Below, piece by piece: positions 34,650-40,124 of a stretch of 64,000 bases of DNA. Origin of the DNA: Actinoalloteichus hoggarensis (GTDB taxonomy: Bacteria > Actinomycetota > Actinomycetes > Mycobacteriales > Pseudonocardiaceae); contig NZ_CP022521.1 of the NCBI RefSeq assembly GCF_002234535.1, forward strand, positions 6,184,001 through 6,248,000, read 5' to 3'. The notes under the pieces are model-generated. The model had not been told where the DNA came from. It did no database searches and worked only from the letters and a program-made list of their open reading frames with translations. How positions within the stretch are numbered: position 1 is the first letter of the stretch; every line of letters begins with the position of its first letter. A program made the position numbers and the translations under genes.

Positions 34650-35644
34650 TCGCGTCGTCCCCTCTGCTCTGGCGCGGTGCGCCGCGCCCGCCCAGCCTAA
34701 CGACGTGGTCTAGACCTCTTTGGTCGAGCGGACGACTGCGCCGAGACCGCCGACCGGCGCGGCGTCGGCCGGCGTCGCCGTCGACCTGGTGCGCCTGTCT
34801 CCGGGACTCCGGACGGCGAGCGCGTCACGGCGGACGTGCTCGGCTCGGGCATCGCCCGGGCCGGTAACGCCGGGACGAGGTCCGGCACACCGAGCGGCCG
34901 TCGTCCGCGCTGGAGACATCCGCCGCTCCTGACACCGGGGGCCGCGTGCCGACCGAGCCCGTCCTAGGGGCGCACAGGCGGGTGAGGCGGTGGCGAGGGG
35001 CGGCGAAGCCGCGGCCCGACCGAAGCCGATCGTCGCCGTCGGCATGCGACCCGTCCCCCTTCCCCGCGGCAGACGCATCCGGCGCCGGGTCTGGTTCCCC
35101 GTGCGACCGCAGCGGCGTCGAGACGAGCGAATCACGCGACCGTCCCCCGCCCGACCATCGCACGACACCCGCGCTGACCTCGGCAGACAGGCCACCGTCG
35201 ACAGTCGACGGGAACCACCACCGGAAAGAGTTCAAAAAAGTTTGTCCGCCGATGTATCTGGCGGCCGATCCGCCCCTCCTGTCTCACAGGTCGTTCACAC
35301 GGCCGGTGGGGGGAAGCCGCGGATCGCGGCGGCAGGGGGAGCGACAGGCTTCGCTTGGGGGAGCGAAGTCACACGTCGTTCGGCTGCCGTGGTCCGTGGC
35401 GCGGTCCCTTCGCGGATGGCTGGGGGTGTGAAGGGGCAGGGGGTAAGACTGCCGACGGGTGGGGCGCGCGGGGGAGGCCCCACCCGTCGGCAGTCGCCTG
35501 AACATCTCCCGAACGATCCGTGCGTACTGGGGGCAGTCCGCACTGAGATTCGCGCATGACATCTGTTCGACAGCGCTGTTGCCGGCGGGCACCGTTTCAA
35601 GATCACCCGCGTCCTACCGGCCAGCCGACCAAGGGAGAACAAGC
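34650..35644. other. Gene-free region with structured G-rich segment before the sigma/CHAT locus
   Basis: About 1 kb with no convincing gene. From about 35220 the base composition changes: an A-rich stretch (35224-35241), the 11-mer GATGTATCTGG (35251-35261), then roughly 200 bp with many G4-G6 runs on the plus strand, a 7 bp hairpin at 35349-35368 and an 18 bp hairpin at 35447-35495. This looks transcribed and structured rather than coding. Confidence 0.45.
35447..35495 (+). terminator. 18 bp perfect hairpin (terminator or attenuator)
   Basis: GACTGCCGACGGGTGGGG (35447-35464) pairs perfectly with CCCCACCCGTCGGCAGTC (35478-35495); the loop is 13 nt and G-rich. No gene ends nearby on either strand, so it probably ends or attenuates a non-coding transcript running towards the small acidic gene at 35645. 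Confidence 0.6.
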
Positions 35645-35842
35645 GTGACCAGCTCCGAGAAGCAGAAGGACGTCGATGTCGCCGAGTTCGAGGCACAGTT
35701 CCCGCCGGTCGAGGAGGGCGTGGCGGACGTGACGGACTCCACGACGGAGGTCGCCGCTCCGGGCAAGGAGACCGGACCGCGCAGGCCCAGTCCGAGCGGA
35801 GGCGTCGGCGATCCCCTCAGTGAGCCGGGCAAGACGAACTAG
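35645..35842 (+). CDS. Small acidic protein upstream of the sigma/CHAT operon
   Basis: A 65-residue protein starting at GTG with GGGAGA 8 nt upstream. The first half is acidic (DVDVAEFEAQFPPVEEGVAD) and the second is Gly/Pro/Ser-rich (RRPSPSGGVGDPLSEPGKTN). It has no cysteine, no signal peptide and no known domain. A hairpin at 35930-35962 separates it from the sigma factor gene. Its unstructured composition would suit a protease substrate or binding peptide, but that is speculation from location. Confidence 0.6.
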   Translation: MTSSEKQKDVDVAEFEAQFPPVEEGVADVTDSTTEVAAPGKETGPRRPSPSGGVGDPLSEPGKTN

Positions 35843-35929
35843 ATCGCCCGAGATCTCGTGATCATCGTCACTAGTCCATTCGTGTGATCGATGTATCTGG
35901 TTGAGATGTTGTCGCTCTTATATTGCGAG

Positions 35930-35962
35930 GTCGGTTCCGTCCCGTGCTGGGCCGGAACCGAC
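35930..35962 (+). terminator. Terminator-like hairpin before the sigma factor gene
   Basis: GTCGGTTCCG (35930-35939) pairs with CGGAACCGAC (35953-35962), followed by TTT. It would end the small acidic gene's transcript or act as an attenuator for the sigma/CHAT operon. Confidence 0.65.
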
Positions 35963-36018
35963 TTTGCGACGTCCTAGTTGAGATCATGGCGGACTGGGGG
36001 TCGGAAGGGGGAAGCAGC

Positions 36019-36621
36019 GTGAACCACGCGCGGACCGGCCAGTCGGAGCTGTCCTGGCACGAGCTCGACGGCTACGACCGGCACGAGGCGTGCCTGATAG
36101 CGGCACGAGCGGGCGACCGCGAGGCGCTGAACGCACTGGTGGTCGGCCTCACGCCACTGGTCTGGCGGGTCGCGCGGGCACGCGGGCTCGGCACGGTCAC
36201 GGCCGAGGACGTCGTGCAGACCGTCTGGCTTCTCCTGCTGCGCAATCTGCATGCCATGGAGGATCCCCGGGCGCTGGCGGCTTGGCTGATCACCACGACT
36301 CGCCGTGAGGCCGTTCGGGCCTTGCGTGGAGATCAGGGCGCGACGATGCCCGCCGAAGCCCTGAACGAACTCCCGTCCCAGGATCACCTGCCGGAACCGG
36401 AGGCGCTGCGCCGCGACCGGGACCAGCAGCTGTGGGCGGCGTATCGCGGGTTGTCCCCCAAGTGTCAGGAAGTGCTGAGTCTGACCGTGTTGGCGGGCCG
36501 GGTCGAATATCAGGGAGTCGCCGAGGCCCTGGAGATACCTCGGGGAAGTGTGGGACCGACGCGAGGCCGCTGCCTGAAACAGCTGCGGTCCTTGCTCACA
36601 GCGGAAGGAGGCTCACCATGA
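36019..36621 (+). CDS. Sigma-70 family factor of the TPR-CHAT operon
   Basis: A 200-residue ECF-like sigma factor. Region 2 covers about residues 17-90 (ALNALVVGLTPLVWRVARAR, AEDVVQTVWLLLLRNL, AAWLITTTRREAVRALR). Region 4 covers about residues 130-195 (GLSPKCQEVLSLTVLAGRVE, YQGVAEALEIPRGSVGPTRG, RCLKQLRSLL). No third domain or transmembrane anti-sigma gene is present. GTG 36019 has GAAGGGGGA 6 nt upstream; an ATG at 35986 is an alternative. The stop overlaps the next start by 4 bp (ATGA). It is paralogous to the factor at 55169. It probably directs transcription of this locus or a stress regulon. Confidence 0.9.
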   Translation: MNHARTGQSELSWHELDGYDRHEACLIAARAGDREALNALVVGLTPLVWRVARARGLGTVTAEDVVQTVWLLLLRNLHAMEDPRALAAWLITTTRREAVRALRGDQGATMPAEALNELPSQDHLPEPEALRRDRDQQLWAAYRGLSPKCQEVLSLTVLAGRVEYQGVAEALEIPRGSVGPTRGRCLKQLRSLLTAEGGSP

Positions 36622-37130
36622 GTCCGACCGGGCACGGCTCCGGGCGACACCCGGGCGGCGATGACCAGGAGAGCACGTTCTACGGGGGGGACATATTGCT
36701 GGCCGAACTGGGCCTGGTGCTGGATGAGGCCGACCCGGTTCCTGCCGGCCTGATCGAGCGTGCGCAGTTCGCCATCGAGCTGGAGAACATCAACGTGGAG
36801 GTGGCCCGCTGGGAACGCCCTAAGCCGCTTGCTGGGGTACGCGGCGCCGAGCCCAGCACGATGACCTTCACGGTCGGCGACCTCACCTTGATGCTCACTC
36901 TCGCGCCGAGCGGCACCGGTCATCGCTTCGACGGGTGGCTGGTTCCGGGAGGCCCGCATCTCGTGGAGGTACGAGTGGCCGGCCACGAGTCCAGCTCGAT
37001 CTCCGCCGATGAGGGCGGCCGGTTCGCCCTGGAGACCGTGCCGCGAGGAACCACGCAGATCCTGGTGCATCTGACCACTGTCGAGGGCAGGCCGGGCAGA
37101 ACGATCGCCACGCCGAGCATCGTGTTGTGA
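36618..37130 (+). CDS. Sigma-partner protein of the TPR-CHAT operon
   Basis: A 170-residue soluble protein. Its start overlaps the sigma stop (ATGA) and has the RBS GGAAGGAGG, so the two are made together. Residues ~22-55 (LLAELGLVLDEADPVPAGLI then ERAQFAIELENINVEVA) form a helical motif that recurs in the partner of the second sigma factor (LLRRLARLFDEVDPPPTSV). The C-terminal ~90 residues look like a beta-sandwich (FTVGDLTLMLTLAPSG, FDGWLVPGGPHLVEV, ISADEGGRFALETVPRGTTQ), similar to carboxypeptidase-regulatory-like folds. No membrane segment. By genetic position it could be a soluble anti-sigma or scaffold; this is inference. Confidence 0.8.
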   Translation: MSPTGHGSGRHPGGDDQESTFYGGDILLAELGLVLDEADPVPAGLIERAQFAIELENINVEVARWERPKPLAGVRGAEPSTMTFTVGDLTLMLTLAPSGTGHRFDGWLVPGGPHLVEVRVAGHESSSISADEGGRFALETVPRGTTQILVHLTTVEGRPGRTIATPSIVL

Positions 37131-37250
37131 TGCTCACCGCACGCAGCCCGTCGGCCTGACACAACGCACCGCTGCCCACCGACGACGAGGCGGGGCGTAG
37201 ATCATGGCTGCTGGTATGGTCCGCCCTGCCCCTTTCCTGCTACCGGAGCA

Positions 37251-40124
37251 GTGCAGACGGTGACTGGTCATGACGCTCAGGTCAAGATCCTGCGCCGAGC
37301 CGAGACATACCGTGGTGCTGCCGCAGCAGCTGCGTCCGCGTACCGTCCCGCTGAAGCGCGTCGCCTCTTTCGCCGTGCTTTGCGAACACTTGACACAGCC
37401 GATGCCACCGTGGAGTCGGACGCCCCGGTTCACACGGATCTCATCCGGTCGCGGATCAGGACGTTGATAAGCCTCGCTTCCTCGCAAGCCGAGACCAGGA
37501 GTCTCGAGCAAGGGCTCAAGATCCTGCGACAAGCCCGCTCGCTGGTGAAGACCCTGCCGACGGGGAATCAGCAGAAGCTCTTCGCCGGGATCATCGACGG
37601 CCAGCATGGATTCATGCTCTCGAGGGCCGGGAAGAACTATCTTGCGATCGAGCGACATGACCGAGGCGTGGCGCTCCTCGAACAGACTCAGAGCGAGATA
37701 CCCGAGGAGAGGTCGATACTTCCGAGAGCCCTGTTGAACAGGGCTCTCGCTTTTATCAGAATAGGACGGCAGAAGCCTGCGATCAAAGATCTCGAGCAGT
37801 GCCTGGCCTTAGCCAGCGATCACGGGTTGGCGCTGATAACAGCAAAGGCCCAGCACAACCTGGGGGCACTGTCCCTCAGGGTCGGCGCGATACCGGAGTC
37901 CATCCATTACTACGAGCAGACGAATCTCGGCTACAACCGGGTGGCCCCCGACATGCTCCCCACGCTCCGTATGGATCAGGCCGAGGCATTGTTGACCGCC
38001 GGCCTGGCCGAGGAGGCCGCCAAGTACCTGGATGAGGCTCTGCCTGTTCTCGAGCGAGATCGTGTCCGGCAGAATCTCGCCGAGGCAGAGATTCTTCGAG
38101 CCACCGCCGCGCTCCTCCTGGATGATCCGGACACGGCACGCCGACTCTCCACATCGGCCCAACGACGACTGACCCGACGCGGCAATCTCAGTTGGGCGGG
38201 TATCGCGGCGCTCACCCGACTGCGAACCGATGTGTCGGTGGCCCTCCGCGACGGCCGGGTCACCGCTGGCCTGCGGAACAGAGCCCTGCGACTCGCCGAC
38301 CGGCTGACCGATCTCCGGCTCACCGACGAGTCCGGAGTGGCCAAGGCATTGGCGGTGCGCATCGCACTCCGACTGGGTCACCTCGATCAGGCCGCGGCCG
38401 AGTTGGCCGGAATCGGACGGCCTCGCCGGATCACCCCCATCGACCACCGGATGCTACTGCGCCTCTGCCGAGCCGAGCTCGCCCTCACCCAGGGAGATCG
38501 CCGTCGTGCGCTGGCGCAGGCTAAGAGCGGGCTGGCCGAGCTGGGTCGGATTCGTGACCGGATGGGCGGTCTGGACCTGGTGAGCGGCACCGCGGTACAC
38601 GGCCGGGAACTCGGCGAGCTGGCCGTCCGACTGGTGCTGGCCCCCGATGACGGCCGAGTCGACGTGCGCAGGCTGTTCCACTGGCTGGAGCGGACCCGCG
38701 CACAGGTGTACCGCTACCAGCCGCAACCCCCTATCGAGGACCCGGTGCTCGCCGAGCGAGTCGATGACTACCGGGTGCTCAGCCGAGAGCTGCAACAGGC
38801 GCGACTCGACGGCAGAAACCCCGGCGAGCTGGCCGCCCGCCACGCCACGCTGCAACGAGAGATCACCCGCCTGGGCTGGCAGACCAGTCTGTGGGGGGAA
38901 CCGACTCCGATCGCGAGCCTCGCCGAGGTGGCGGCTCGGCTCCGCGAGCGTGCGATGGTGAGCTTCGCCGTCTCGGACGGGACCGCCGTGGCGGTGGTGA
39001 TCGTCGACGGACGGCCCCGGCTGGTGCGGCTGGGACCCGTCGCCGAGATCACGGCGGCGGCCCGAGAGCTGCACGCCGATCTCAACGCGCTGGCCCCCGA
39101 CCGTCAACCCACCCCGCTGGTCGACGTGATCGCGGGTTCGGCTCGACGCAGGGCGGAGCGCCTCGACGAGAAGCTGCTGCGGCCGTTGGCAGGCCTGGTC
39201 GGGGACCGCGAGCTGGTCATCGTGCCGACCGGCGCGCTGTACGCGGTCGCCTGGGGAACGCTCCCGTCCATGCACGGCAGGCCGCTGACCGTGGCCCCCT
39301 CCGCCACCGCGTGGCTCTCCGCCGACCAGACCGCGGGCAGCCCGACCTCCGCCCACGACGACGGAGACGGACCGACCGCCGAGCAGACCGGCGGGCTTCG
39401 CGACACGTCGCCTCGCGATCAGGACTCCGGATACCACTCGCGGTTCCCCGCCAGGGCGGTCCGGGGTGCCGACGTCTCGAGTGCCGGCGGCCGGGGCGCC
39501 GACGACCGCTCGGAGAACGGCACGGAGCCGTCGGGTCCCGCGAGCACGGCAGGAACACCCGTGCCGAGGTCCGCCGAGGCATCCGAGGCGGGCCATGTCG
39601 TGCTGATCAGCGGTCCCGACCTGCTCGGCGCCGTGGGCGAGGTGGCCGGACTCCGCACGCATCATCCGGACGCCCGCGTGCTGGAAGGCCGACAGGCGAC
39701 GGTCGGGGCCGTGCTCGACGCCCTTGACGGCGCGCGGCTCGCTCATGTCGCCGCGCATGGCGCGCACGAGCCGGAGAACGCGATGTTCTCCCGGCTCGAA
39801 CTCACCGACGGCTCGCTGTTCGCGCACGAGACGGCGCGGCTGCGCCGTGCGCCGGAGCGGGTGGTGCTCGCCGCCTGCGAGCTCGCACTCAACCGCATCC
39901 GACCCGGCGACGAGGCGCTGGGCTTCGCGGGTGCCCTCTTGGCCAGCGGCTCTCGTACCGTCATCGCCGCGACCAGCAAGGTCGGCGATCAGGCCGCCGC
40001 CGACACGATGGCCGAGTTCCACGGACTCCTCGTCCAAGGCCGCCCGCCCGCCGCGGCGCTGGCGGAGGCCGTCGCCCGCGAACCGCTGCGACGCCCCTTC
40101 GTCTGTCTCGGCTCCGGCACCTGA
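37251..40124 (+). CDS. TPR-CHAT caspase-like protease
   Basis: A 957-residue protein. Residues ~10-470 are helical repeats of TPR type (ALLNRALAFIRIGRQKPAIK, ITAKAQHNLGALSLRVGAIP, LAEEAAKYLDEALPVLERD). A linker domain follows (LREMVSFAV-like ERAMVSFAVSDGTAVAVVIV). The C-terminal CHAT domain (~640-957) carries the catalytic dyad His836 (HVAAHGAHEP) and Cys876 (VVLAACELALN), both intact. Residues ~700-775 are a hydrophilic insertion inside the CHAT domain. CHAT proteases cleave specific protein partners; the linked sigma factor and partner are candidates. GTG 37251 is the likely start, with CGGAG just upstream; GTG 37260 is possible. Confidence 0.9.
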   Translation: MQTVTGHDAQVKILRRAETYRGAAAAAASAYRPAEARRLFRRALRTLDTADATVESDAPVHTDLIRSRIRTLISLASSQAETRSLEQGLKILRQARSLVKTLPTGNQQKLFAGIIDGQHGFMLSRAGKNYLAIERHDRGVALLEQTQSEIPEERSILPRALLNRALAFIRIGRQKPAIKDLEQCLALASDHGLALITAKAQHNLGALSLRVGAIPESIHYYEQTNLGYNRVAPDMLPTLRMDQAEALLTAGLAEEAAKYLDEALPVLERDRVRQNLAEAEILRATAALLLDDPDTARRLSTSAQRRLTRRGNLSWAGIAALTRLRTDVSVALRDGRVTAGLRNRALRLADRLTDLRLTDESGVAKALAVRIALRLGHLDQAAAELAGIGRPRRITPIDHRMLLRLCRAELALTQGDRRRALAQAKSGLAELGRIRDRMGGLDLVSGTAVHGRELGELAVRLVLAPDDGRVDVRRLFHWLERTRAQVYRYQPQPPIEDPVLAERVDDYRVLSRELQQARLDGRNPGELAARHATLQREITRLGWQTSLWGEPTPIASLAEVAARLRERAMVSFAVSDGTAVAVVIVDGRPRLVRLGPVAEITAAARELHADLNALAPDRQPTPLVDVIAGSARRRAERLDEKLLRPLAGLVGDRELVIVPTGALYAVAWGTLPSMHGRPLTVAPSATAWLSADQTAGSPTSAHDDGDGPTAEQTGGLRDTSPRDQDSGYHSRFPARAVRGADVSSAGGRGADDRSENGTEPSGPASTAGTPVPRSAEASEAGHVVLISGPDLLGAVGEVAGLRTHHPDARVLEGRQATVGAVLDALDGARLAHVAAHGAHEPENAMFSRLELTDGSLFAHETARLRRAPERVVLAACELALNRIRPGDEALGFAGALLASGSRTVIAATSKVGDQAAADTMAEFHGLLVQGRPPAAALAEAVAREPLRRPFVCLGSGT

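Follow-up and report, generated by a model that had tools for sequence, protein, structure and literature searches.

Locus organization

A 64,000-nucleotide stretch of the Actinoalloteichus hoggarensis chromosome (contig NZ_CP022521.1, positions 6,184,001 to 6,248,000; hereafter the window) carries genes for a small acidic protein, a sigma factor of the extracytoplasmic function (ECF) type, a partner protein of 170 residues and a TPR-CHAT protease. Their coordinates are given in Table 1. An initial annotation of the window had described the sigma factor, the partner with its ATGA overlap and a TPR-CHAT protein bearing His836 and Cys876, and this was confirmed by the open reading frames (ORFs), Pfam and NCBIfam. 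Position 35645, the annotated start, belongs to the acidic ORF. The sigma factor gene begins approximately 370 bases farther on, and the best reading of its start is GTG at 36019 (200 amino acids, aa) or ATG at 35986.

Table 1. Genes and sequence features of the sigma factor and TPR-CHAT locus (window positions).
Feature	Position	Strand	Evidence and remarks
Promoter P1, TGTATCT-N16-CTCCT	35253..35280	+	5' of small acidic ORF; exact match to shared bipartite motif
Hairpin with 19-bp arms in P1 leader	35447..35495	+	Inverted repeat in window and L022
Small acidic disordered motif protein, 65 aa	35645..35842	+	GTG start; C-terminal SGGVGDPLSEPGKTN; homologues in L021 and L022; pN < pS
Promoter P2, TGTATCT-N16-CTCTT	35892..35919	+	5' of sigma factor; exact match to shared bipartite motif
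ECF-type sigma factor	36019..36621	+	GTG start (ATG 35986 possible); Pfam and NCBIfam matches
Partner, candidate anti-sigma factor	36618..37130	+	ATGA overlap; alignment; AlphaFold2 model; fold comparison; sub-threshold PF13620 in far homologues
TPR-CHAT protease, 957 aa	37251..40124	+	PF12770; full-length homologues
Catalytic His836 codon	39756..39758	+	His in 97/97 CHAT proteins covering the position
Catalytic Cys876 codon	39876..39878	+	Cys in 96/96 CHAT proteins covering the position

The CHAT domain of the protease was matched by PF12770 (3.1e-30). TPR matches were below the Pfam cut-offs. The catalytic dyad was universal among the covering proteins in an alignment of 99 CHAT proteins, prepared after seven loci repeating a genome of the first 20 were removed. 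Three fragments in this alignment were without one or both dyad positions. A PDB profile search with 18 CHAT proteins (142 distinct sequences, E up to 1) gave mostly TPR proteins among the 60 listed, and the catalytic region matched PDB chains named CHAT domain protein, such as 8d9f and 7x8a (E 0.012-0.014). These chains are presumably Csx29 of Craspase. Two matches exceeded the CHAT cut-off in the A. hoggarensis genome, the window gene and another elsewhere on the chromosome.

The sigma factor matched Sigma70_r2 in Pfam (5.9e-11, over the cut-off) and Sigma70_r4_2 below the cut-off. It matched the NCBIfam sigma70-ECF model TIGR02937 at 7e-19 with 68 bits versus a cut-off of 42.9. No Pfam or NCBIfam match (E up to 1) was found for the partner, and no family match for the small acidic ORF in the Pfam, NCBIfam or PADLOC scans. 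None of the four locus proteins matched the anti-phage defence families of PADLOC (E up to 1). PF13620 was matched, below its cut-off, in nine of ten far homologues of the partner. A candidate architecture for the partner, taken from its predicted model, is a set of N-terminal helices followed by an Ig-like beta-sandwich. Its P-x-G-x-[HY] loop has an invariant P and G, with H or Y (scored by eye) in 21/21 partners.

Conservation of the sigma factor, partner and CHAT protease

A search of 60 relatives recovered the partner in 34. Neighbourhoods were compared in 20 family loci and in the best 80 of 134 confirmed named loci; eight of the 80 repeat contigs of the first 20. The sigma gene lies directly upstream of the partner in 20/20 family loci and precedes it in 80/80 named loci, so the pairing is more than chance. 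The sigma stop overlaps the partner start as RTGA at 99 of these 100 loci. Overlap coupling of this kind is a usual layout for a sigma factor and its inhibitor and is no proof of one. On balance, the partner more likely than not acts as an anti-sigma factor.

CHAT adjoins the pair in 15/20 family loci and 39/80 named loci. Six of the named loci had less than 2.5 kb of downstream flank, and one of the six still showed CHAT. Genomes were searched for 23 of the 41 named loci with no adjacent CHAT, and all 23 had a CHAT of at least 481 bits elsewhere. Of 36 family genomes, 23 had both a strong partner (128 bits or more) and a strong CHAT (436 bits or more), and the 13 others had neither (Fisher p 4e-10, relatedness ignored). 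These cut-offs were set after seeing the gaps in the scores (128 versus 39 bits for the partner, 436 versus 113 bits for CHAT). In four of these 23 genomes (G009, G023, G029 and G032) the strong CHAT and the strong partner are far apart. Neighbourhood comparison and shared occurrence both support the conserved sigma-partner-CHAT association that the initial annotation had expected. Judged by inheritance, the sigma factor, partner, CHAT and small ORF are one genetic unit, and CHAT and the sigma factor very probably act in one pathway.

Small acidic proteins

The small ORF of the window has homologues in two same-genus loci (L021 and L022). Both ends of the protein are conserved. Constraint is weak, with nonsynonymous differences (pN) of 0.28-0.38 versus synonymous differences (pS) of 0.48-0.51; the pN of the partner is 0.09-0.10.

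A CHAT gene was taken to lie away from the pair when no partner gene was called in the 700 bp upstream of it. There were 35 such genes, five viewed over 15 kb and the 30 best matches over approximately 1.5 kb. They were preceded by a small acidic disordered ORF (31), a subtilase (3) or nothing called (1). The 31 small ORFs encode 33-145 aa and end 67-195 bp upstream of CHAT; at one of them (L193) a sigma-like gene lies farther upstream. This supports the earlier suggestion that the small acidic ORF is a CHAT-related component.

Small-ORF and promoter counts were made on 93 of 101 loci, eight that repeat genomes of the first 20 having been removed. Where CHAT is linked to the pair, an automatic rule called a small ORF upstream of sigma in 27/48 loci, and the count was at least 34 after the misses were reread. 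Where CHAT is unlinked the count was 0/45 by the automatic rule alone, rereading having covered linked loci only. The rule called 29 ORFs, two of which (one unlinked, one linked) were discounted as chagasin-like by similarity. Ten linked misses were reread. Six had a small ORF, one (L080) had been seen in an earlier listing, two had none and the ORF of L051, which looks frame-shifted or truncated, was left out of the count.

The 65 small proteins collected, the window's included, are all net acidic. A five-residue word occurs at least twice in 28 of them (1.5 in shuffles). Motifs are lineage-specific and include Cys-rich types as well as GGPYKPMGEP-, GPVHHQTEP-, TGAWDPNTPPP- and GHHQTHSVPVD-type motifs. 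Eight motif classes were assigned by eye, with lineage also used in part for the 'Kib' class, and six of them correspond exactly to clades of the CHAT tree (support 0.55 for one and 1.0 for the rest). The clade of the seventh class includes one extra locus at which no small ORF was called, and the eighth class (GNWDP) does not form a clade. In seven genomes that have two CHAT paralogues, the two small proteins differ in class, matching their CHATs; in an eighth genome with two CHATs, one of the two small proteins was not found. The pattern P-x-G-x(1-2)-[HYWF], which was picked after looking, occurs in 33/65 small proteins versus 8.6 in shuffles, and the small protein of the window lacks it.

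Leader-like N termini and repeated short units in the small proteins, with P1 standing before the small ORF, could also point to multi-core peptide precursors (signal peptides, or like ribosomally synthesized and post-translationally modified peptides) that are matured by the neighbouring proteases and produced under the sigma factor. This is very improbable. The NCBIfam scan of nine small proteins found no precursor family, eight being without a match and the four matches of the ninth being sub-threshold and to His-rich proteins. A long hydrophobic stretch is absent from 64/65, the exception being a Thr/Ala run. The motif protein is probably a substrate or ligand of CHAT, as its position and co-inheritance suggest.

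Some of the small CHAT-associated proteins, such as those of L164, L180, L187, L193 and L195, carry Cys motifs (CC/CPNHP-like, CxGC-like), in part with His-rich stretches, which suggests that they bind metal or act in redox. Proteins encoded upstream of sigma in L033, L083 and L109 carry repeated motifs, with as many as about nine units of GAWDPNTPPP type, joined to a C-terminal domain of approximately 70 aa. This domain also stands alone and, by eye, forms the C terminus of a papain-like protease. In Prauserella and Amycolatopsis loci (e.g. L045:6949-7299 and L109:5366-6496) the sigma gene is preceded by genes for a papain-family C1 protease (3.7e-39) and a chagasin-family (I42) inhibitor of cysteine proteases (2.7e-15), a single protein of either family having been scanned. 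These genes are a candidate second protease/inhibitor layer next to the CHAT circuit.

Promoter and leader

A bipartite promoter, TGTATCT-N16-CTCYTNT, stands before the sigma gene and before the small acidic ORF. Sites upstream of sigma or the small ORF were picked by TGTATC alone, and a -10 element emerged at fixed spacing. At 27 sites, after near-duplicate removal, the positions 17 bp downstream of TGTATC read C (25/27), T (23/27), C (26/27), T or C (24/27) and T (23/27). The best site upstream of sigma scored above 98% of shuffles in 35/48 linked and 39/45 unlinked loci. The same was true of 26 of the 29 ORFs called upstream of sigma and of 25 of the 27 true linked small ORFs. The model was trained partly on the sites scored, and shuffles were of two-base blocks. 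P1 (35253) and P2 (35892) are kept in two same-genus genomes.

The 23 genomes with the system had 28 exact promoter copies and the 13 without it had one; a reversed-pattern control gave 13 and six, respectively. In one relative an exact copy is located between the matches for partner and CHAT (G033:C28:296128-296155).

The leader between P1 and the small ORF (35281-35644, approximately 360 nt) is strongly conserved in the genus and contains the 19-bp hairpin. The hairpin is present in the window and L022 and is not among the best inverted repeats of L021. Two Rfam matches to the leader were both below the gathering score.

Deeper relatives and subtilases

Twenty deeper loci (13 from a phylum search, four from the same order and three second loci of same-family genomes) contain 21 partner genes. 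Thirteen of these have sigma, CHAT and an S8 subtilase nearby, and 15 have a subtilase nearby. The one subtilase scanned with Pfam (L150) was confirmed as S8, and the others were assigned by a local profile. Tandem short units such as GGPFTS, GHPFWG, HPMYDG, GGPFMK and GVPFGN (2-7 copies; period 6, or 10-12) occur in 14 of 18 subtilases, and among the 12 with a located catalytic Asp motif the array starts 54-89 residues before it. The array is missing in L150 and three short subtilases of the 18 examined.

The small-protein motifs resemble these hexapeptide repeats in subtilase linkers. GGP[FY] occurs in 8/65 small proteins versus 0.2 expected in shuffles, and all eight are in one CHAT clade. 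Family CHATs beside a subtilase (L162 and L176) fall outside the small-ORF lineages on the CHAT tree, at a node for which no support value was printed and with L179 left off the tree. We infer that the small protein took over from the subtilase as motif carrier. Two loci, L165 and L166, have a divergent layout in which CHAT is on the opposite strand to sigma and a short subtilase that has no tandem repeats; a partner-like gene was recognised in L165 and not in L166.

TPR domains often bind short linear motifs, and the motif protein might be a regulator of TPR-CHAT, a ligand or pseudo-substrate inhibitor that keeps the protease inactive through the TPR groove, with the real substrate elsewhere. 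Its place directly upstream of CHAT in 31/35 cases, at gaps of 67-195 bp, and its co-inheritance by CHAT clade agree with this. The repeats also occur in subtilase linkers, which would suit a cleavable site better than an inhibitor, and such a regulator is quite unlikely.

Proposed circuit

The comparisons are consistent with an autoregulated ECF sigma/anti-sigma circuit gated by CHAT proteolysis, in which the motif protein is the CHAT docking or cleavage target. This is proposed tentatively. The N-terminal helices of the partner would hold the sigma factor in check, and its beta-sandwich would be the docking face. The small protein, recognised by TPR-CHAT through its short motif, would serve the protease as a substrate, stand-in or docking target. 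When a signal arrives, CHAT would cut the motif protein and/or the partner and free the sigma factor, which would fire P1 and P2 and so amplify the circuit. In the four-gene form of the deeper relatives an equivalent cut would free the subtilase from its own N-terminal region.

Parts of this scheme differ in strength. Cleavage of the partner itself by CHAT is rather unlikely. The initial annotation further suggested that the TPR part senses the trigger, which would make it a candidate sensor. The motif protein may imitate the P-x-G-x-[HY] loop of the partner, so that both compete for CHAT. It is doubtful, though conceivable, that the hypervariable short motif, as tandem units in a subtilase linker or as a free acidic protein, is a lineage-specific address read by CHAT that switches the sigma/anti-sigma pair.

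A negative role for CHAT, and in the relatives also for the subtilase, was considered. Here CHAT would degrade the sigma factor, and the partner would be an adaptor presenting sigma and not an inhibitor. Degradation of sigma by such proteases has been proposed for ECF54 (PMC8999054, section 3.3), a sign opposite to that of the circuit proposed here. Co-occurrence of CHAT and sigma fits degradation equally well. The RTGA coupling at 99/100 loci, a layout usual for a sigma factor and inhibitor, speaks against it and is no proof, and the motif protein is left unexplained. Degradation of sigma is considered unlikely.

Besides the opposite sign of the ECF54 proposal, several results weigh against the gated sigma/anti-sigma circuit. 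The helices of the partner were modelled by AlphaFold2 at low confidence (pLDDT 52-59). Four of the 21 deeper partner genes have sigma with no CHAT or subtilase nearby and two have none of the three. Among the 31 small ORFs that precede unlinked CHATs, just six have the promoter, so the sigma factor does not in general target CHAT. Even genomes with the system contain few exact promoter copies (28 versus 13 for the control), and the three in the A. hoggarensis genome are P1, P2 and one inside an HNH-like ORF. An outward regulon was therefore not seen among these copies, and with two of its own genome's three copies at the locus the proposed circuit looks chiefly self-directed.

Comparison with known systems

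Proteolytic control without an anti-sigma factor has been proposed for ECF54, with carboxypeptidase, subtilase and CHAT proteins conserved in the gene context (PMC8999054). The initial view that the mechanism of such loci is wholly undescribed was therefore not borne out. As in ECF54, an ECF sigma factor here has CHAT in its context and is without a classical anti-sigma factor, and the deeper relatives unite sigma, partner, CHAT and subtilase. Unlike ECF54, the window has no subtilase by the local subtilase profile and has the small motif protein in its place. The window was not filed as an ECF54 member because it lacks a subtilase; no ECF54 model was among the 25 of 51 NCBIfam matches listed for the locus. 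The setting resembles ECF54, and ECF54 membership of the window sigma factor is not established. The 'carboxypeptidase' of ECF54 is perhaps the CarboxypepD_reg-like domain of the partner. Full-text literature, with subscription papers largely outside it, gave no experiment on an actinobacterial sigma-CHAT locus or on whether CHAT or subtilase proteolysis controls ECF54-type sigma factors, and no mention of the motif proteins. The locus provides a ready reporter in the conserved promoter, a candidate substrate in the motif protein and a clean negative control in the invariant dyad, which together make the proteolysis proposal for ECF54-type sigma factors testable.

EACC2-caspase systems also bring a caspase-like peptidase, a TPR protein and an ECF sigma gene together in one neighbourhood (PMC8195603), as does this locus. 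They centre on EACC2/TRADD-N domains and variable effectors, at which no search was aimed here.

In Craspase, Csx30 inhibits CASP-sigma and is cut by Csx29 (PMC10028731). Type III-E Craspase and the present locus share a TPR-CHAT protease, an ECF sigma factor and a companion protein, and the His/Cys spacing is similar (H615/C658 in Csx29 versus H836/C876 here). The likeness to Csx29 is weak in sequence, with NF041237 at 18.4 bits versus a cut-off of 300 in NCBIfam, which leaves the protease outside the Csx29 family. No Csx30-like protein was recognised; the partner had no NCBIfam match, the presence of a Csx30 model in that library being unchecked. None of the 18 rows of a tandem-repeat scan of the window was read as a CRISPR array, no CRISPR-dedicated or Cas7-11 search having been made. 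If the motif is a protease address, these loci would offer a naturally occurring collection of protease-tag pairs, and also a counterpart to Craspase signalling that works without a CRISPR guide.

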